A stretch of DNA of 64,000 nucleotides from Propionivibrio sp. Its GTDB lineage: Bacteria > Pseudomonadota > Gammaproteobacteria > Burkholderiales > Rhodocyclaceae. Of this stretch, positions 16,038 through 64,000 are shown piece by piece (within the stretch, counting starts at the first letter, position 1; each line of letters begins with the position of its first letter). Both the position numbers and the translations under genes were made by a program. Below the pieces are notes generated by a model. It searched no databases and had not been told where the DNA came from. It was given only the letters and a program-made list of their open reading frames with translations. The DNA lies in the NCBI GenBank assembly GCA_016705685.1, contig JADJLB010000002.1:124001-188000 (forward strand), given 5' to 3'.

Positions 16038-17042
16038 TCAGGCAAAAATGTCAATTAGTCCGTTCCCCTGTTTTGTTGAAAACATACTTCCTGGCAACGA
16101 ACCAACCGAATCCACGGCAAGTATAGACCTATCGGTCGTCCATGGGGATGAGGGCCGGCCTTCATCGCCATTACCCGCTTGCCGCCCGAATGATTCGGCA
16201 CTGACATTGGCCTGCCCCAGGGCAATACCGGCACTGGCAAACATGTCACGCAATCTTGGCAACGCCGAATCGATGGCATCGCGTGTTTCCCCGCTTGCCG
16301 ATGCAAAGGACACAATGGCGTTACCTTTATCCAGGTTTAGCGATACCTCGATCGGGCCCATCTTCGGGGGATTCAGGGTGATGAGCGCGGTCTGTTTGTC
16401 ATTGGCGGCCAGCCACACGATCTTCTGTCCAAATTCACTCGCCCAGCTTTGATCGCGAATGGGCGTCGCAATGGAAAGCGGTACGGTCTCATGATTCGGT
16501 AGCGTGTTGACGCTGGCAAGCGCATTGCCCGAAAGTGGCTGGACGGTTCTCGGAGACGTGTCGGGCGCGACTTCCTGCGTAATTTCGATCGCTGAACGCG
16601 TCGAACTTGGCGCGATTGCGGCAACTTTTGCCGGTTTGTCTTCAACAGGAGAGGGGGTGGATGAACTGGGTTCGGTTTTGGCGTCAGACTTCAAGCTATC
16701 GCCCAACGTCGGTGGGGCTGGCGGGGTTGCCAGGCCGGACGAGATTGATCTGTCCTTCGGGATAAGCTTTGAATCGGAAGCGGCATCTGCGGTCGCCAGG
16801 ATTTGCGGTGCTATCGAAGCGGCCGCAAGCAGTGCAGCCGCATCCGTTGGAGTGGCTTCGGTGACAGGTGAATCGTCCTTCTTGACGGATGCAGCAGGAG
16901 TTTCCGAGGTGATGGGCAACAACTGGCCGAGGAGCAGGCTTGCAAAGTCGGGGCCGGCAATGATGCTGTCGCCTTCGGGAGGGGTGTCAGCAACGGCAGA
17001 CTGCGTTGGTTGGGGTAACGAGGCAACAATGGTCACTGACAT
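16038..17042 (-). CDS. fliK: FliK, flagellar hook-length control protein
   Basis: FliK (334 residues) is the secreted ruler that sets hook length and triggers the export specificity switch. The first two thirds are Ala/Ser/Pro-rich and low in complexity, as usual. The C-terminal Flg_hook domain is recognised by VPLSIATPIRDQSWASEFGQKIVWLAAN and ALITLNPPKMGPIEVSLNLDKGNAIVSF, followed by RDAIDSALPRLRDMFASAGIALGQANV. It is the first gene after a good sigma-54 promoter. A second FliK-like gene lies at 26950-28131. Confidence 0.92.
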   Translation of the reverse strand: MSVTIVASLPQPTQSAVADTPPEGDSIIAGPDFASLLLGQLLPITSETPAASVKKDDSPVTEATPTDAAALLAAASIAPQILATADAASDSKLIPKDRSISSGLATPPAPPTLGDSLKSDAKTEPSSSTPSPVEDKPAKVAAIAPSSTRSAIEITQEVAPDTSPRTVQPLSGNALASVNTLPNHETVPLSIATPIRDQSWASEFGQKIVWLAANDKQTALITLNPPKMGPIEVSLNLDKGNAIVSFASASGETRDAIDSALPRLRDMFASAGIALGQANVSAESFGRQAGNGDEGRPSSPWTTDRSILAVDSVGSLPGSMFSTKQGNGLIDIFA

Positions 17043-17077: not shown

Positions 17078-17093
17078 TGCAATATTGGTGCCA
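17078..17093 (-). promoter_or_regulatory. Sigma-54 promoter for fliKLMNOPQR
   Basis: On the minus strand the sequence TGGCACCAATATTGCA matches TGGCACG-N4-TTGCW with the exact 10-base GG to GC spacing. Transcription would start near 17066, about 24 bases before the fliK ATG. The 120 bp gap between fliJ and fliK therefore likely separates two transcription units, fliFGHIJ and fliKLMNOPQR. Confidence 0.8.
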
Positions 17094-55527: not shown

Positions 55528-57216
55528 TCAGGCCGCCTTGGCACCTTTCCCGATGCAACTGAGGCGATTGACGCCGCTCAGCAAGGCCTTTATCGATGCC
55601 GTCACGATGTTCGCATCCAGACCGACGCCGTAGCACTCGCGGTCACCACTGGTTTGCGTGACTTCCATGAAGGCGCAGGCTTTGGCGTCGCCGCCTTCGC
55701 GGCTGCTGCCCATCGAACGCTCCTCATAGCTGCGCACCTGCAGTGCGATGCCGAGTTTGCGCAAGGCGTGAACGGCGGCGTCAATCGGGCCATTGCCGAC
55801 GCCGGTCAGTTCATGCGATTCCCCATTCATCTGCAGCGTGAGGCGAATACCTTGTGCCGTACCCTCTTCATAAAGATGATGCTTGATATAGCGAACGGGA
55901 GTGCCGGTCTCAAGGTAGGTTTGCGAGAAAAGCGCCCAGATGTCGGCGGCTTCCATTTCCCCGCCGTGCTGATCGGTGTGACGCTGCACTTCGGCCGAGA
56001 ATTCGACCTGCAAGCGGCGCGGCATGACGATTCCGTACTCGGTTTCGAGAAGATAGGCCACGCCGCCCTTGCCCGACTGGCTGTTGATGCGGATGACCGA
56101 ATCGTAACTGCGGCCAAGATCAGCGGGGTCAATCGGCAAGTACGGCAATTCCCAGCGCGCATCGGCCCCCTGCGCTGAAAATCCTTTCTTGATGGCGTCC
56201 TGGTGCGTTCCGGAGAAGGCCGTGAACACAAGGTCGCCGACATAAGGATGGCGTGGGTGGATCGGCATCTGCGTGCAGTACTCGAAGTTGCGCGCCACCG
56301 CGTTGATGTCCGAGAAATCGAGATTCGGCGCGACGCCCTGCGTATAGAGATTGAGCGCCAAGGTGACGAGGTCCACGTTGCCGGTGCGCTCGCCGTTGCC
56401 GAAGAGGCAGCCCTCGACGCGGTCGGCGCCGGCCATCAGGCCGAGCTCGGTGGCGGCTACGGCGGTGCCTCGATCATTGTGCGGGTGCAGGCTGATGAGG
56501 ATGCTGTCGCGCTGCGCCAGATTGCGGTGCATCCATTCGATCTGGTCGGCATACACGTTGGGCGTGGCCCTTTCCACCGTGGTTGGCAAGTTGAGGATGA
56601 TCTTGTTGTTCGGCGTCGCTCCCCAGGCTTCGGTTACTGCGTTGCAGATATCAAGGGCGAAATCGAGTTCGGTCGCGGTAAATGTCTCGGGGCTATATTC
56701 GAGCACCCATTCCGTCTCCGGATTCTGCTCGGCGAGCTGTCTGACGAGCGTGACGGCCGTCACGGCCATCGTCACCACTTCGTCCTTGCTCATGCCGAAG
56801 ACGATTTCGCGGAAAGGCTTGGACGTGGCGTTGTAAATGTGAACGATGGCGCGACGAGCGCCTTTGAGCGCTTCGAAGGTGCGGCGAATGAGCTGTTCGC
56901 GGGCCGGGGCGAGCACTTCAATCGTTACGTCGTCGGGAATGTATTTTTCTTCGATCAGCTTGCGGACGAAATCGAAATCGGTCTGCGAAGCCGAAGGGAA
57001 GGCCACTTCGATTTCCTTGAACCCCACCTCGCAGAGTGTCTTGAACATGCGCATCTTGCGCTCGGCGTTCATCGGTTCGAAGAGTGCCTGATTGCCGTCG
57101 CGCAGATCGGTACTCATCCAGATCGGCGCCTTAGTGATGGTGCGGCTAGGCCACTGGCGGTCGTCGATCTTGACCGGCGGAAAGGCGGTGTATTTGGTGG
57201 CGGGTTGTTTCAACAT
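55528..57216 (-). CDS. leuA: 2-Isopropylmalate synthase
   Basis: LeuA (562 residues) makes 2-isopropylmalate from acetyl-CoA and 2-oxoisovalerate, the first step of leucine synthesis. It is the longer type found in actinobacteria and many proteobacteria: [13 protein letters not shown] (residues 33-45, catalytic Arg/Asp), [17 protein letters not shown] (metal-binding His), [17 protein letters not shown], and a C-terminal regulatory domain ([28 protein letters not shown]) for leucine feedback. It is divergent from an Lrp-type regulator. Confidence 0.96.
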
Positions 57217-57393
57217 GCTCGCGTACTCCCATGGTTGGCGCTAAGGCCAGTTTCGATGGTGGAATCATACGCAATGGCGGGCAGCAGGTGCTTGCGTTGT
57301 TCGATACAAAATGGCCATAGTTTGGAAGAAAATTGCCAAAAGAATATTATTAATGTAAGTTAATGTCACGATGTAAATAACTACGGCAATTAT

Positions 57394-57855
57394 ATGGAAA
57401 TTGATCGCTTCGATCGTCAAATATTGCAGATACTGCAGACAGAAGGTCGCATCAGTAATCAGGATCTGGCTGACCGTATCGGCCTGTCTCCTTCGCCCTG
57501 CTTACGACGGGTCAGGACGCTGGAGGATTCCGGGGTGATTGCGGGCTACCGTGCACTACTCAATGCCAAGGCTCTCGGTTATACGCTGATGGCGCTGATC
57601 TATATTTCCATGGACAAGCACACGCCCGAGCGCTTTGAGCACTTTGAGAACGAGATTAGTCTGATTTCCGAAGTGCTCGAGTGCCTGCTGGTTACCGGCC
57701 AGGACGCGGACTACCAGATCAAGGTTGTCGTCAGGGATATGGACGCCTATCAGGAACTCCTGCTCAACCGTATCACGCGCATCCAAGGGGTGACGGGTGT
57801 GCATTCGAGCTTCGTGCTGCGCCGGGTTGTTGACAAGACGGCGCTGCCGGTTTGA
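57394..57855 (+). CDS. Lrp/AsnC family transcriptional regulator
   Basis: The 153-residue regulator has an N-terminal helix-turn-helix (DRFDRQILQILQTEGRISNQDLADRIGLSPSPCLRRVRTLEDSGVI) and a C-terminal RAM domain with LLVTGQDADYQIKVVVRDMDAYQELLLNRIT. Its length is typical. It is divergent from leuA across an AT-rich 177-bp gap (TATTATTAATGTAAGTTAAT near 57343-57363). Regulation of leuA by this protein in response to an amino acid is likely but not shown. Confidence 0.92.
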   Translation: MEIDRFDRQILQILQTEGRISNQDLADRIGLSPSPCLRRVRTLEDSGVIAGYRALLNAKALGYTLMALIYISMDKHTPERFEHFENEISLISEVLECLLVTGQDADYQIKVVVRDMDAYQELLLNRITRIQGVTGVHSSFVLRRVVDKTALPV

Positions 57856-57869
57856 GCAAGTCAGTCAAC

Positions 57870-58526
57870 TTAAATGTCAATGTCGTCCATCGGCCGATGC
57901 AATAATACCGCTGGCGCATCGACGCGCGGGCACTGCCGTAGCTTGCCGATCTGGCGAAACCCTAGTGACTGCTGATAGTAACGGGTATGGCGCGGGTTCA
58001 CTTCGATCACGGCATCGCTGGCCGCGAACGTATCCTTGCCATACTGTCGAGCGACCATGAATAGCGCATTCAGCAAGTCATGGGAACTGAAATCGGGATC
58101 GACGGCCAGCCTGGTTACTTCGCAGACGACCCGCCCTGGTCGTCGCAGGCCGGCAAGCTCGTCGGCGTAGAGGGAATCCGCCTGCAACCCGTCGGGGGAA
58201 TCCCGGCCCAAGGTCAGGGTCGCCACGACTTCGTCATACTGCCAGGCGGCGAGCGTCAAGTGGTTCGGGTCGTCGAGTTGGTGATTGACATAGTCCGTAC
58301 TGTAGCCACGCCAGGTGTACATTTGCTGCACCAGCATGTTGGCCATGCTTTGCTGGAGCGTGGTTTGCACGGGACGTATGTTGTATCCACGACAGCGTGG
58401 CAGGAGGCCCCATAAGGGCCTCAGCGATGGGAGCAGGCGATAGTCTTCGTCAAGAGGCCGCAGTGTCTGCCCGTCAAGAGAGAAAGCCATTTCTGGAAGT
58501 GGGTTGTTGTTGATGGCGATCTGCAT
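57870..58526 (-). CDS. PEP-CTERM/exosortase-associated N-acyl amino acid synthase-like acyltransferase
   Basis: The 218-residue protein is a GNAT-fold acyltransferase of the FeeM/autoinducer-synthase-like type: TTLQQSMANMLVQQMYTWRGYSTDYV, ATLTLGRDSPDGLQADSLYADELAGLRR, VCEVTRLAVDPDF (with the EVTRLAV core) and VIEVNPRHTRYYQQSLGFRQIGK. Relatives make N-acyl amino acids or are associated with exosortase/PEP-CTERM clusters. The gene follows bactofilin by 51 bp and is likely cotranscribed from the sigma-54 promoter. No exosortase gene is in the window. Its product is unknown. Confidence 0.8.
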   Translation of the reverse strand: MQIAINNNPLPEMAFSLDGQTLRPLDEDYRLLPSLRPLWGLLPRCRGYNIRPVQTTLQQSMANMLVQQMYTWRGYSTDYVNHQLDDPNHLTLAAWQYDEVVATLTLGRDSPDGLQADSLYADELAGLRRPGRVVCEVTRLAVDPDFSSHDLLNALFMVARQYGKDTFAASDAVIEVNPRHTRYYQQSLGFRQIGKLRQCPRVDAPAVLLHRPMDDIDI

Positions 58527-58577
58527 CTGGTAGTTCCAGCGAAATGAGTCCGGAAAGCTTCGGAGTGTTGAGTGTTT

Positions 58578-59174
58578 TCAGCCGGCCGCCGAATTGAGCG
58601 CGACAAATGGCTCAACCGCAGGCCGCGCCGGGGCAACGGGTTTGGCGGAAATGACGTTGATTTCTCCGCAGAGTTCGCCGCCTTCGTCGGCAACCAATTT
58701 GCCATAGCGAATGGTTCCGCTCACTCGCCCGGTCGAATGAATGATCAGTTGGGAACGCGCGGTCAGTTCACCCTCGAAAGTGCCATGAATCTCGGCGATA
58801 TCGATGCTCACTTTGCCAGCAAAAGATCCGTTCTCGGCAATTCGTATGACGCGGCTATCCATGGTGGCTTCTACGCGACCCTCGACGACCAGCGTGTCGC
58901 AGTCGAGGATTTCGGCCCCTTTGAGCTTGACGTCGGGACCGACGATCAAGCGTGCTCCCACGACGTTATCGGTTGATGAAGCGTCCTTTGACGCTAGGGC
59001 GACGGGCGCCGGGGAACTCTTCGCGGGTTCGGGTTGAGCGGGAGCCGGCTTGTCGGCCGTCGTGCTTTTCTCGGGCGCCAGTTTGTTGAGTTGAGCACCG
59101 TAGGCAGGTACGGGTTGGGCATCGCGACGGGTCACCGGTTCATTGCGGCCGAATACGCTGGGTTTATTGAACAT
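58578..59174 (-). CDS. Bactofilin family cytoskeletal protein
   Basis: The 198-residue protein has an N-terminal flexible Pro/Ala-rich region (about residues 1-70) and a single bactofilin beta-helix domain (LIVGPDVKLKGAEILDCDTLVVEGRVEATMDSRVIRIAENGSFAGKVSIDIAEIHGTFEGELTARSQLIIHSTGRVSGTIRYGKLVADEGGEL). Bactofilins form stable filaments or sheets at the membrane and help with stalks, flagella, cell shape or polar localisation. I use the ATG at 59174 (MFNKPSVFG), preceded by AAGGAA. A strong sigma-54 promoter lies 45 bp upstream, and GlrR-type operators lie further upstream, so expression is likely under the neighbouring two-component system. Confidence 0.92.
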   Translation of the reverse strand: MFNKPSVFGRNEPVTRRDAQPVPAYGAQLNKLAPEKSTTADKPAPAQPEPAKSSPAPVALASKDASSTDNVVGARLIVGPDVKLKGAEILDCDTLVVEGRVEATMDSRVIRIAENGSFAGKVSIDIAEIHGTFEGELTARSQLIIHSTGRVSGTIRYGKLVADEGGELCGEINVISAKPVAPARPAVEPFVALNSAAG

Positions 59175-59218
59175 CGTTATTCCTTCTTGGTGGGTAAAAA
59201 CTTGGACGAGAAGGCTGG

Positions 59219-59234
59219 AGCGAGATACGTGCCA
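59219..59234 (-). promoter_or_regulatory. Sigma-54 promoter for bactofilin operon
   Basis: On the minus strand TGGCACGTATCTCGCT matches TGGCACG-N4-TTGCW with only one mismatch in the fixed positions and the exact 10-base spacing between GG (59233-59232) and GC (59221-59220). Transcription would begin near 59208, 34 bp before the bactofilin ATG. Confidence 0.85.
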
Positions 59235-59308
59235 GAGTTTTAATAACATTGTTAAACAACGAGTTATATAAATATATTAAATAGAAATATTAGATTTTAC
59301 CGCTTAGT

Positions 59309-59326
59309 TGTCGGGTAATAACGACA
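59309..59326. promoter_or_regulatory. GlrR/QseF-type operator, site 1
   Basis: TGTC-N10-GACA, extended by symmetric flanking bases to TGTCG-N8-CGACA. This is the motif known for GlrR (QseF) of enterics. It lies about 75-90 bp upstream of the -24 box, a normal enhancer position. A degenerate third copy (CGTC-N10-CAGA) starts 22 bp downstream at 59331. Confidence 0.75.
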
Positions 59327-59374
59327 TTTCCGTCGGGTTATTTGCAGATCACGATTCGACACAGGGACTTGCAT

Positions 59375-59392
59375 TGTCGCTAAACAACGACA
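59375..59392. promoter_or_regulatory. GlrR/QseF-type operator, site 2
   Basis: TGTC-N10-GACA, extended to TTGTCG-N8-CGACAA (perfect six-base arms). It starts 66 bp from site 1. The pair forms the expected enhancer for a sigma-54 activator. It may serve the bactofilin operon, the kinase gene, or both. Confidence 0.75.
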
Positions 59393-59660
59393 AGTCAAAT
59401 AACCATCTGATAAAGAAGAAGAAAATACAAGTCCGTTTTCTTGTTTCCAGCCCTGCTCGGGTCATTTTGACCGGCAGGGTTGCTGGAAGCTGGTTTAAAC
59501 TGTCGCCGTTCAGTAATGATTCTTCTTCGTTAACACCGATGTTGCACTGCTGGCAGAGTGATTTAACCGAGATGGATGGGGCGCACGTTGGCGTTGCTTC
59601 TCTCCAAAACCTCGGCTCTGGCCGGTGAGTCCTTCTCCAGCGCTGCTTTGAAATGGACAA
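59393..59660. other. Intergenic region upstream of the sensor kinase, no gene seen
   Basis: This stretch, with 59175-59392, makes up the 486-bp gap between bactofilin and the kinase. The start (to about 59450) is A/T-rich, with a run of AAG repeats near 59413-59429. I see no sigma-54 element in the kinase direction and no protein frame that I can support. Confidence 0.6.
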
Positions 59661-61085
59661 ATGATACGGATTTCGTTTCGCCAGAGTATGCTGTCCGGGT
59701 TTATGCTGATCACGCTGCTGCTCAGTTGGGCAGCGCTGCGGAGCTGGCTTGAGCTTGAACATTTTGTCGAACAAAGCCGGCGGAGTAGTGAACAGGCGCT
59801 TCAACTGAGTTCATCGATCCGTGAACTCGCTGAACGGACTGTCGATCTGGAGCGCAGCTCACGCCAATTCATTGTCCTGAACGATGCCGCCTTGCTTGAA
59901 CGCTTTGACGAAAATGTCACCCACTCGCTGGAAGCGGTGAAGCGCCTTGAATCGGCCCGCGACAACCCTCTGGGCGAGCTTCCGGGAAACTGGCGACAGG
60001 CTGTTGTGCAACTCAGCGACAGCCTCCATCAATCCGTGCCGCGTGCCGTTCGGGCGCCCGAACTGGCATCGATTCTGAACAGGTTGTCTGACTTGAATGC
60101 CGAACTTGGGCTCAACGCGCGTCGTTGGATCGACGAGCGGCGAGCGACGATGTTGCTTGAACTTGAGCAGAGTCGCCAACATCTCACCCGACTGGTCGCC
60201 GTAGCGGTGGTCGGCGCCTTTATGGTAGCGCTGGCCATGAGCTGGTGGCTGGCCCGACCCATTGTTTGCCTCGAACGATCTATCGAGCGTTTGGGCCAGA
60301 GCCGTTTCGATGAACCGGTGTCGGTTCATGGCCCGGCAGACCTGAGACGTGTCGGGCGGCGTCTGGACTGGTTGAGACTGCGTCTGAGCGATCTCGAGTC
60401 GGGACGAGAGCGCGCGCTGCGTCATGTCTCGCATGAGTTGAAGACGCCATTGACGGCGTTGCGTGAAGGTATCGCACTGTTGCAGGAAGAGGTGGTGGGG
60501 TCGCTGCAGGGGGCGCAACAGGAAGTCGTCGACATACTGCATCACAACGTGATGGCCCTTCAGCGCGATATTGAAAGCCTGCTTCGCCTCAATGCTGTCT
60601 CCTTCGAAGCCCGCCGTCAATCCTGCCATCCCCTGGTCCTGCGAAAACTGCTAGACGATGTGGTGCGCGGTCGAGAATTGCAGATCCAGTCGCGCCATCT
60701 GACCGTACAGTGCGAAGCTCCGGCGATAACACGTCTCCTCGATGAAGAGAAACTACAGGTTGCCCTCGATAATCTGCTCTCCAATGCCATTGATTTCAGC
60801 CCTGAAGGCGGTGTCATCCGCCTCGAAGCCGCGCTGATCGAAAACTGCATCAACATTGCCTGTATCGATCAAGGGCCGGGCATTGCCGCTGAGGATGCCG
60901 AACGCATCTTCGAACCATTCGTCCAGGGGGGGCGTGCCTCACCGACACCGCGCCAGGGCAGCGGCGTGGGCTTGTCGATTGTCCGCGAACTGATGACGGC
61001 CATGGGCGGGCGGGTGCTGCTGGTGCCCTGCATCGGGAACGCGCCGGGAGCCATATTTCGGCTTGAGGTGCCTTGTGCGCCGTAA
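59661..61085 (+). CDS. QseE/GlrK-like membrane sensor histidine kinase
   Basis: The 474-residue kinase has a first membrane helix (MLSGFMLITLLLSWAALRSWL, about residues 10-30) and a helical periplasmic domain (31-175). A second helix (LVAVAVVGAFMVALAMSWWLA, about 178-198), a HAMP linker, a HisKA domain with the H box RHVSHELKTPLT (His258), and an HATPase domain (NLLSNAIDFSPEGG, DQGPGI, GSGVGLSIV) follow. The order of kinase, lipoprotein and sigma-54 regulator is the QseE-QseG-QseF (GlrK-YfhG-GlrR) arrangement of gammaproteobacteria. Its signal is unknown. Confidence 0.87.
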   Translation: MIRISFRQSMLSGFMLITLLLSWAALRSWLELEHFVEQSRRSSEQALQLSSSIRELAERTVDLERSSRQFIVLNDAALLERFDENVTHSLEAVKRLESARDNPLGELPGNWRQAVVQLSDSLHQSVPRAVRAPELASILNRLSDLNAELGLNARRWIDERRATMLLELEQSRQHLTRLVAVAVVGAFMVALAMSWWLARPIVCLERSIERLGQSRFDEPVSVHGPADLRRVGRRLDWLRLRLSDLESGRERALRHVSHELKTPLTALREGIALLQEEVVGSLQGAQQEVVDILHHNVMALQRDIESLLRLNAVSFEARRQSCHPLVLRKLLDDVVRGRELQIQSRHLTVQCEAPAITRLLDEEKLQVALDNLLSNAIDFSPEGGVIRLEAALIENCINIACIDQGPGIAAEDAERIFEPFVQGGRASPTPRQGSGVGLSIVRELMTAMGGRVLLVPCIGNAPGAIFRLEVPCAP

Positions 61086-61103
61086 ATATTCACGGATGGT
61101 CCC

Positions 61104-61652
61104 ATGAAGAACGGTCGATTGATCAAGGCATTGCCGTCAATGGTACTGATTCTTGCCGTCTTGCTTACCGCCTGCGCCACTCCGCCGTCACCGACGCCCG
61201 AGCAACGCGCCAGCGTTGATGAGTCGGCGATGCTGCCACTACTGGGCCATATCCAGCTCCTTCATCGGATGTCGCCTTCTGATCTGTCTCGGGAACGCGC
61301 GGTGCTCGCAGTGAAGCAACAGACCCCGGCGACCCAGGTTCGCATGGCCGCACTATTGAGCCAGCAACGACCTTCGATGGATCTTGTCAGGGCGTTAAGC
61401 CTGCTGGAAAGCGTGCTGAAATCCACTGAACCCGAGGCGGTCAGCCTGCACCCACTGGCCAGGATATTGGCAAACCATTTTCAGGAGCGGCTAAAACTTG
61501 AGCAGCAGAACGAAAAGCTTGTCCAGCAGCTGAAGGACAGTCAGCGACGGGGCAGCGAGCTTCAGGACAAGCTTGATGCTCTGGCGGATATCGAGCGTTC
61601 GCTCCCGGCACGCCCGACGGCCGGCGATACGCTGCCCGGAGCCGCGCGATGA
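61104..61652 (+). CDS. QseG/YfhG-like outer-membrane lipoprotein
   Basis: The 182-residue lipoprotein has a signal peptide with lipobox LTAC (Cys24). It is followed by a helical domain with repeated short helices (LLGHIQLLHRMSPSDLSRERAVL, ALSLLESVLKSTEPEAV) and a coiled-coil tail (RLKLEQQNEKLVQQLKDSQRRGSELQDKL). In E. coli, QseG interacts with the sensor kinase and is needed for its activity. Position between kinase and regulator fits that role. Its stop overlaps the regulator start (ATGA). Confidence 0.78.
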   Translation: MKNGRLIKALPSMVLILAVLLTACATPPSPTPEQRASVDESAMLPLLGHIQLLHRMSPSDLSRERAVLAVKQQTPATQVRMAALLSQQRPSMDLVRALSLLESVLKSTEPEAVSLHPLARILANHFQERLKLEQQNEKLVQQLKDSQRRGSELQDKLDALADIERSLPARPTAGDTLPGAAR

Positions 61653-63055
61653 TTCAGTCGAAAAGAGCCGATGTCAAGCCGCGCTTCGCCCATGTTCTGG
61701 TCATTGACGACGATCAGGATTTGCTCCGACTTCTTTCGATGCGGTTGCACGCCTGGGGATTCCGAGTTTCGACAGCGTCTTCCGCCGAGGAAGGCCTGGC
61801 GCGAATTGCCGTCGAACCGCCGCAACTGGTGGTCAGCGATATTCGCCTGCCGGGCAAGGATGGGCTGGCCCTGTTTGACGAAATCCGGACGACACGGCCG
61901 ACATTGCCGGTCATCTTGTTGACCGCCCATGGCACGATTCCGGACGCGGTTCAGGCGATGTCACGCGGAGTGTTCAGCTATCTGACCAAGCCTTTCGACA
62001 GCAAGGAGCTGCACGAAAAGATTCAGCAGGCCCTGCAGCTTTCTCCCGTGTGTATCGGGCAGGAAACGGGTCAGGGCGATGACTGGCGGGAAGGCATCGT
62101 CTTTCGCAGCAGCTGCATGGCTGAATTGATGGAAGAAGCCCGGGTCGTCGCCGTTTCGGACGCCAGTGTCCTGATACGGGGCGAGAGCGGTACCGGGAAG
62201 GAGGTCCTGGCCCGGGCCATCCACCGGGCCAGCCGGCGCGCCAAAGCACCTTTCGTGGCCATCAACTGCAGTGCGATTCCGGAACAATTGCTGGAGTCCG
62301 AGCTGTTCGGCCACGTCCGGGGCGCTTTCACCGGCGCTACCAGCGCGCATCCCGGTCTTTTTCAGGCGGCCGACGGTGGGACACTATTTCTCGACGAAAT
62401 CGGTGACATGCCGTTGGCACTCCAGGTCAAATTGTTGCGCGTGCTGCAGGATCAGGCCGTGCGGGCCGTGGGATCGACTCGCGCCGAGCCGGTTGACGTG
62501 CGGGTCATCTCCGCCACGCATCGCGATCTGGAAGTCGCCATGGCCGAAGGTCTGTTCCGTGAGGATCTTTACTACCGTTTGGACGTCGTCACCATGGTTC
62601 TGCCGCGACTCGACGATCGGCGCGAGGACATTCCCATTCTGGCCTCCTATTTCGTCCAGCAACTGGTTAAGAAATATGATAAAGGTATAACCGGAATTGC
62701 GCCGGAAGCGCTGGAAGTTCTGGCCAGTGCGTCCTGGCCGGGCAATGTCCGCCAGCTCTACAACGTGGTGGAGCAATCCTGCGCACTGGCGACCACGCCC
62801 CTTATCACGTTGACCCTCATCCAGCGCGCCTTGCGGGTACCGACCATGGAGGCGCTGTCTTACGCCGACGCGAAGCAACGCTTCGAGCGTAATTATCTGG
62901 TACAACTCCTCAAATTGACCGATGGTAGCGTCGCCGATGCCGCGCGGATTGCCGACCGCAACCGGACGGAGTTCTATCGTTTATTGCAGAAGCATGAGCT
63001 TTCGCCGGACATGTTTCGTGGCGCAGCCAACAATGCCGGCACCGCAGACCGCTGA
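61649..63055 (+). CDS. QseF/GlrR-like sigma-54 response regulator
   Basis: The 468-residue protein has a receiver domain (phospho-acceptor Asp64, LVVSDIRLPG; Lys114 in TKPF) and a sigma-54 interaction AAA+ domain with Walker A GESGTGKE at 178-185 and GAFTGA at 225-230. A C-terminal helix-turn-helix follows, in which RNRTEFYRLLQKHEL is close to the C-terminus of enteric GlrR (the RNRTEFYKLL motif). The TGTC-N10-GACA sites at 59309 and 59375 are predicted targets. It is coupled to the lipoprotein gene by a 4-bp overlap. Confidence 0.9.
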   Translation: MIQSKRADVKPRFAHVLVIDDDQDLLRLLSMRLHAWGFRVSTASSAEEGLARIAVEPPQLVVSDIRLPGKDGLALFDEIRTTRPTLPVILLTAHGTIPDAVQAMSRGVFSYLTKPFDSKELHEKIQQALQLSPVCIGQETGQGDDWREGIVFRSSCMAELMEEARVVAVSDASVLIRGESGTGKEVLARAIHRASRRAKAPFVAINCSAIPEQLLESELFGHVRGAFTGATSAHPGLFQAADGGTLFLDEIGDMPLALQVKLLRVLQDQAVRAVGSTRAEPVDVRVISATHRDLEVAMAEGLFREDLYYRLDVVTMVLPRLDDRREDIPILASYFVQQLVKKYDKGITGIAPEALEVLASASWPGNVRQLYNVVEQSCALATTPLITLTLIQRALRVPTMEALSYADAKQRFERNYLVQLLKLTDGSVADAARIADRNRTEFYRLLQKHELSPDMFRGAANNAGTADR

Positions 63056-63160
63056 GCGGAATGCTGCGCCGAGGCATGCTTCATGCGCAGGACGGCAGCG
63101 CAGCGAAGGGGTGTCGCGTACGCGAATGAATGGACCGCCAGCCTGTTGTTGCCCGGATGG

Positions 63161-63598
63161 TCAAGTCTTTCTGGAAAGCACATTTGCCCTCGCCTCAAAG
63201 GCCGAGACCATGCTGGTGGCCATCGGCATGATCAGCATCTGCATGACCGGTTTAAGCAGAAGCAGCCTTGTTTCGCAGTCGAGGGAGAATTCAACCTGGC
63301 AGCGATCATCGCCCAGAGGCGAAAAATCCCATCGAATGTTGAAACGAGAAAACGAACGATCCTGGGATACGACGGTGATTCTGCGAGGCCGTTCGAATTC
63401 CGTTCTCGTGCGGAAACGATGTGTCAGCAGGCCCAGTGACAGGCTCTGTTCGGTTTCGTAAGCGTTTTCATGCCGGTTTACTATCCTGGCACTGCTCACC
63501 AGGGGCAGGAATTCCGGATAGCGCTCCACGTCGGCAACGATGTCGAACAAGCTCTCGGGTGATTGCGCAATGGCGCGGCATTCGCGGTGGTTTGCCAT
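63161..63598 (-). CDS. RatA/COQ10-type START-domain protein
   Basis: The 145-residue protein belongs to the START/SRPBCC fold group including E. coli RatA and yeast Coq10: ECRAIAQSPESLFDIVADVERYPEFLPLVSSARIV, then RTEFERPRRITVVSQDRSFSRFNIRWDFSPLGDDRCQVEFSLDCE. Family members bind quinones or related lipids; RatA can block 70S formation when overproduced. In many bacteria it is near smpB, but no smpB is seen here. It converges with the response regulator gene. Confidence 0.8.
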   Translation of the reverse strand: MANHRECRAIAQSPESLFDIVADVERYPEFLPLVSSARIVNRHENAYETEQSLSLGLLTHRFRTRTEFERPRRITVVSQDRSFSRFNIRWDFSPLGDDRCQVEFSLDCETRLLLLKPVMQMLIMPMATSMVSAFEARANVLSRKT

Positions 63599-64000
63599 GG
63601 GTTCAAGCCGTCCTTCAGTCTATGGTCCATCGATACAACGCTTCGGGCATCAAGAAATCCGGCCAGGGAAAATCAAGGCAATGTTGGCGTAAGCCGGGCC
63701 AGGGCGCCAACGACACGCACAGGATCGATCAGCCTCAGGGTAGCGAGGCTGATCGCTCAGGCAAACAGCCGACAGGCCATGCCGATGCCCAGATAGGCCT
63801 GACAAAGAAAGGCCTCGTCCCGCCGAGTTGGCATTATCCACGAATAGTGGCCCTTGTATTTTCGGAGCTGCTATCCAATTTGCCGTAGCGCGTTTCGCCG
63901 GGCAGGGACGGTCAAGGCAAGGCTTGGTGCATTGAGGCCGTGCGGACAAATGCCGATCCAATCAAAATTTGCGATTGACACAGGTCGAAAACACGCCGAT
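63599..64000. other. Terminal region, no supported gene
   Basis: About 400 bp remain after the RatA-type gene. Several short frames exist on both strands, but none has a convincing start, ribosome site or known family. The region contains one strong hairpin, listed separately. A gene may begin beyond the right edge. Confidence 0.6.
63726..63755. repeat. Perfect hairpin CGATCAGCCTC-N8-GAGGCTGATCG
   Basis: An 11-bp perfect stem with an 8-base loop lies about 130 bp upstream of the RatA-type gene. There is no adjacent T-run. It may be a transcript end signal or an isolated palindromic repeat. Confidence 0.55.

Follow-up and report, generated by a model that had tools for sequence, protein, structure and literature searches.

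The 64,000-nucleotide window analyzed here, from the genome of a Propionivibrio species (assembly GCA_016705685.1, contig JADJLB010000002.1), contains a locus at which a predicted three-component system of the QseE-QseG-QseF (GlrK-QseG-GlrR) type lies back to back with a bactofilin gene. The bactofilin gene and a gene for a FeeM-type enzyme point leftward, while a sensor kinase, a lipoprotein-like open reading frame (ORF), and a sigma-54 response regulator point rightward; two operators and a promoter are located in the gap (Table 1). The ORFs and their domain matches agreed with the divergent layout described in the original prediction. The two TGTC-N10-GACA sites claimed for the gap were both exact, and the claimed near-consensus sigma-54 promoter aimed at the bactofilin was present with one mismatch to TGGCAC-N5-TTGC, 45 bp before the bactofilin start codon. 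Inspection by eye did not resolve any promoter for the kinase operon. A known RNA family was rejected as a candidate for region 57000-64000, where an Rfam search gave no match at E up to 1.

Table 1. Genes and sequence elements of the bactofilin locus, in window coordinates.
Feature	Position	Strand	Remarks
FeeM-type N-acyl amino acid synthase (predicted)	57870..58526	-	second gene of predicted operon, accessory; PF21926, PDB 2G0B
Bactofilin	58578..59174	-	predicted main target; PF04519; MFNK N terminus
Sigma-54 -24/-12 element TGGCAC-N5-TCGC	59220..59234	-	faces bactofilin
IHF-like site TAACTCGTTGTTT	59254..59266	-	1 mismatch to YAANNNNYTGATW; 32 bp upstream of TGGCAC
Promoter-proximal GlrR-type operator TGTC-N10-GACA	59309..59326	n/a	exact; 74 bp from TGGCAC
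Distal GlrR-type operator TGTC-N10-GACA	59375..59392	n/a	exact; 66 bp from proximal operator
QseE/GlrK-like sensor kinase	59661..61085	+	HisKA + HATPase_c
QseG-like lipoprotein ORF	61104..61652	+	between kinase and regulator; lipobox LTAC
GlrR/QseF-like sigma-54 response regulator	61649..63055	+	receiver + sigma-54 activation domains

The regulator combines a PF00072 receiver with a PF00158 sigma-54 AAA+ domain and carries GAFTGA in its translation; the genome has one rpoN. Among the NCBIfam models, the best match was GlrR (PRK15115) with 586.8 bits, ahead by 171 bits. The protein is 54.5% identical to Escherichia coli GlrR and has in common with it the helix-turn-helix motif RNRTEFY, which was found in 70 of the 72 regulator-bearing loci. 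Related bacteria also possess PEP-CTERM regulators of the PrsK/PrsR type, which likewise pair a kinase with a sigma-54 response regulator. We rejected a PrsR-type assignment, as the regulator reached 366.2 bits on the PEP-CTERM model, under its cut-off of 502.6, and scored higher on the GlrR model. The kinase and E. coli GlrK share 31% identity across 467 aligned positions, and the profile of the kinase matched that of PDB 9M08, an entry of the QseG-QseE complex paper, over the full length (E 2e-76). Of the QseE-QseG-QseF-like trio that had been proposed, the kinase and the regulator are borne out, while the third member is likely QseG, though that label is weak by sequence. A lipobox was present in 61 of 71 relatives when the start codon was chosen to favor one. 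In a BLAST search of a three-sequence set, the lipoprotein aligned weakly with E. coli QseG, near the C terminus (23 amino acids, E 0.003). A profile of the relatives, which contains run-on ORFs, scored E. coli QseG at 12.1 bits, compared to 7.7 for the best shuffle and 12.4 for E. coli GlrR. The lipoprotein had no match in Pfam, NCBIfam, or PDB, and none to QseG in PDB at E up to 10.

Relatives of the bactofilin were gathered by protein similarity only, and the best 80 of 195 were taken; one locus (L141, with 7 bp upstream) was left out, giving 79 loci with 500 bp of upstream sequence. The named loci among the best 80 were all from Rhodocyclales or unclassified proteobacterial assemblies, and the closest named relative among them was Candidatus Propionivibrio aalborgensis, with a bactofilin 74% identical by tblastn (L083). 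The bactofilin itself matched PF04519 with 63.8 bits. Its MFNK N terminus looks like the bactofilin membrane-targeting sequence (MFSKQAKS, consensus MFSKKKK; PMC12448750, excerpt), and a start of the form M-F-N/S-K was found in 68 of the 79 loci, four GTG starts counted. The neighboring enzyme had been described as a PEP-CTERM-type acyltransferase. We discarded this assignment: the sole NCBIfam match, PRK14852, reached 43.7 bits, far under the cut-off, while both PF21926 (FeeM; 166 bits, cut-off 27) and the profile match to FeeM in PDB 2G0B (E 1e-17) point to an enzyme with predicted N-acyl amino acid synthase activity. Because the FeeM-type gene follows the bactofilin in 52 of 80 loci, we regard bactofilin as the constant target and FeeM as accessory. 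Thus, the proposed output of bactofilin plus acyltransferase was retained for the former, whereas the enzyme is not a constant part of it.

Taken singly, the motifs are ordinary. The two operators are the only exact TGTC-N10-GACA sites in the window; shuffles contained 0.97 on average, and 29 of 100 had at least two. The -24/-12 motif matched 88 times in the window at up to two mismatches, compared to 86.22 expected. Because such counts are uninformative, conservation and arrangement were used instead. A module consisting of an operator, 60 to 90 bp, and TGGCAC-N5-TNGC occurred once in the 3.46-Mb genome, and the reversed control pattern did not occur. The module was also detected in 22 of 99 relatives and in 34 of 300 genomes of the order, with no match to the control pattern in either set. 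A class-wide scan found it in 5 of 143 genomes, own included, against one control match, and the five other loci of that scan had no recognizable bactofilin. Strict single operators (TGTCG-N8-CGACA) occupied eight places genome-wide versus four for the control, and only the two described here lie close together; a single site is therefore not enough to name additional targets.

Conservation of the operator pair in relatives had been set beforehand as a test, and both the pair and the -24/-12 element turned out to be kept in nearly all Rhodocyclales loci examined. Controls were averages of dinucleotide shuffles and of random windows from the same loci. At least one exact operator was present in 75 of 79 loci (shuffles 0.35, random windows 1.25), and a pair 63 to 70 bp apart with at most one mismatch each in 76 (0 and 0.05). 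A promoter with at most one mismatch to TGGCAC-N5-TNGC was found in 76 of the 79 upstream regions (4.85 and 7.35), an operator and promoter 60 to 95 bp apart in 73 (0 and 0.5), and the pair and module together in 72 (0 and 0). The motifs might have arisen by chance and persisted because the intergenic regions are related overall, which would agree with their unremarkable counts in the window; this explanation is hardly credible, given the near-zero values in shuffles and other windows of the loci and the appearance of 35 ungapped promoters (near-identical ones collapsed), in which the operators and the promoter stand out from diverged surroundings.

The gap between operator and promoter fell into three classes of 73 to 75 bp (62 of 73 loci), 63 to 64 bp (7), and 84 to 87 bp (4), which step by about one helical turn. 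Such steps are what binding to one face of the DNA predicts. Among 34 modules that precede other genes, the gaps followed the same periodicity (p 1.7e-4 for a resultant of 0.49 at 10.5 bp); this p value is corrected neither for relatedness nor for the choice of period, and of the four periods tried, 11 gave the highest resultant. These gaps came from 47 loci (L058-L082 and L163-L184) minus a duplicate (L081) and 13 bactofilin-operon loci; four further order-wide modules were left out. Removal of five modules judged to be coding-internal (L060, L163, L165, L166, and L173) raised the resultant to 0.67 at 10.5 bp (n=29), but this subset was chosen after the gaps had been seen and open frames span the module in other loci too, making 34 the fairer number. 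In addition, 45 of the 73 operator-promoter spacers contain an IHF-like site with at most one mismatch on the promoter strand (shuffle mean 9.0, maximum 14), and 36 of these matches start at exactly -32. On the other strand, such sites were found in 14 of the 73 spacers, compared to 6.7 in shuffles.

The fixed helical steps also bear on whether the operators, lying as they do between two operons, could act on either. They might mainly autoregulate the kinase-lipoprotein-regulator operon, leaving the bactofilin promoter to answer to something else, and there is a precedent in Proteus mirabilis, where the glmY promoter serves QseF in the control of its own operon (PMC8745638, excerpt). We consider this improbable. 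The distance of the operators is fixed relative to the bactofilin promoter, and in four loci (L148, L157, L158, and L161) the sites are kept before the bactofilin without the operon or its regulator in the examined flank; in three of the four, a regulator orthologue is located elsewhere in the genome (56-60% identity). Furthermore, the same module precedes unrelated genes elsewhere in the order. These encode BON-domain, CsbD-like, and glycine-zipper proteins and, as judged by eye from CxxCH motifs, multihaem cytochromes; a Pfam search of seven example genes behind modules returned three BON, one CsbD, one glycine zipper, and two without a match. Some module matches lie inside coding sequence and are probably due to chance.

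Across 28 genus-level genomes, own included, the regulator and bactofilin orthologues were present in the same 13. Regulator orthologues scored at least 786 bits and other matches at most 333, and bactofilin orthologues had E of 3.6e-61 or lower. By arithmetic, such agreement would arise once in 37 million if the genomes were independent, which they are not. In three loci (L149, L152, and L159), a regulator match starts about 360 to 440 bp upstream of the bactofilin on the opposite strand; no kinase match was found within these loci, and the kinase may lie elsewhere. Distant bactofilins (at most 31% identity) had neither an operator nor a promoter match in any of the eight examined, which were those with loci among 15 distant matches.

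Comparative genomics thus supports the interpretation put forward in the original prediction, and we regard it as highly probable that a system of the QseE-QseG-QseF type activates the divergent bactofilin gene. Several observations weigh against this. The score of the regulator falls below the PRK15115 cut-off of 763; we call it GlrR-like because GlrR is its best model nonetheless. The lipoprotein resembles QseG weakly. Seven of the 79 loci (L106, L110, L125, L147, L153, L156, and L160) fail the full module test, and since the loci are related, their counts are not independent trials. Among nine orthologous bactofilins of other genera or families (L198-L206), the module distance was found in three, with operator and promoter (at most one mismatch) 62, 63, and 74 bp apart in L198, L199, and L201. 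The remainder included an operator pair with a one-mismatch promoter 175 bp further (L205), a promoter with a one-mismatch operator 226 bp away (L200; all distances by subtraction), operator-like sites only (L202, L204, and L206), and neither an operator nor a promoter match (L203). The regulators of L199 and L205 were found on a different contig from the bactofilin. Outside Rhodocyclales, the link between regulator and bactofilin is patchy.

A further point against the adjacent regulator comes from L157, which keeps the operators, while the best regulator match in its genome is 43% identical and no close GlrR orthologue was found. Together with the many sigma-54 regulators of the Propionivibrio genome (the GlrR query matched 29 times, in some cases through the receiver or AAA domain only), this would fit another activator using the operators. 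Since the operator and the helix-turn-helix motif occur in the same combination with E. coli GlrR, and the regulator and bactofilin orthologues share their genomes, we judge such an activator very unlikely.

In Enterobacteriaceae, the QseE/QseG/QseF system controls glmY and rpoE. The locus shares with it the gene order of kinase, lipoprotein, and regulator, and the paired TGTC-N10-GACA sites upstream of a sigma-54 promoter, which resemble the operators of E. coli glmY. There are two operators here as compared to three upstream activating sequences in E. coli, where the two sites nearest to glmY lie 63 bp apart with the promoter 89 bp further, versus an operator-promoter distance of 74 bp here. 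The IHF-like site provides another parallel, as IHF is reported to assist QseF at glmY (PMC6075780, excerpt). In contrast to the enteric system, the predicted target codes for a protein, bactofilin, and points away from the kinase operon. A search of this genome for GlmY (RF00128) gave no match, while the E. coli positive control did. Clusters of qseEGF containing the same three-gene system have already been published for Betaproteobacteria (PMC12691602); the word bactofilin does not occur in that paper, and its excerpt names no target outside enterics. Among the open-licence papers searched, we found none pairing bactofilin with GlrR, QseF, or Rhodocyclaceae, and searches combining bactofilin with sigma54, or with response regulator and RpoN, gave no title on control of a bactofilin by a regulator. 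A GlrR-type system is predicted with good confidence to drive bactofilin through sigma-54, which would give a familiar type of circuit a new output.

By analogy to enterics, from which envelope stress as the input is also carried over, the lipoprotein would stimulate the kinase, which would then phosphorylate the regulator. The regulator would bind the two operators, whose centers lie roughly 84 and 150 bp upstream of where the -24 element begins, with IHF probably bending the DNA between them and the promoter. Transcription of bactofilin by sigma-54 polymerase would follow, along with that of the FeeM-type gene in loci that have one. A membrane-attached bactofilin polymer would thus give an envelope-sensing circuit a structural output and occupy the position of glmY in E. 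coli.

Bactofilins are mostly discussed as scaffolds in cell shape and the cell cycle. If the prediction is correct, a dedicated sigma-54 circuit makes a bactofilin an inducible response, and the QseEGF family gains a cytoskeletal protein as its output where enterics have the small RNA glmY. The regulon could be tested in Propionivibrio, Accumulibacter, Dechloromonas, Azonexus, and Thauera, all of them frequent in wastewater treatment.

The modules before other genes suggest how such outputs may vary. In a close relative (L082, genome G008), a second module precedes a 78-amino acid ORF that has a glycine-rich stretch and resembles a lipoprotein in carrying a lipobox-like motif; additional targets may therefore exist in some species. 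In L066 (genome G069), the module lies before a 92-amino acid ORF with a bactofilin-like start and no bactofilin core, followed by FeeM; here, the circuit may have outlived the bactofilin core. In L183 and L184, modules precede a CsbD-like ORF with a gene for a glycine-zipper membrane protein behind it, which suggests a GlrR-linked stress cassette in other families. A tentative generalization, which we hold to be slightly short of even, is that GlrR-type regulators in the order control lineage-variable envelope genes (BON-domain, CsbD-like, glycine-zipper, and bactofilin). The output fixed in Rhodocyclales would then be bactofilin, in many species plus a FeeM-made lipid, forming an inducible scaffold at the membrane to strengthen the envelope when the lipoprotein and kinase sense its state.

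Elsewhere in the window, an exact consensus sigma-54 element, TGGCACCAATATTGC, is found at 17079-17093 on the minus strand, 36 bp before an ORF on the same strand (16038-17042). The product looks like the flagellar hook-length protein FliK, and the ORF adjoins one for a FliI-like ATPase. Flagellar genes are commonly under sigma-54 control.

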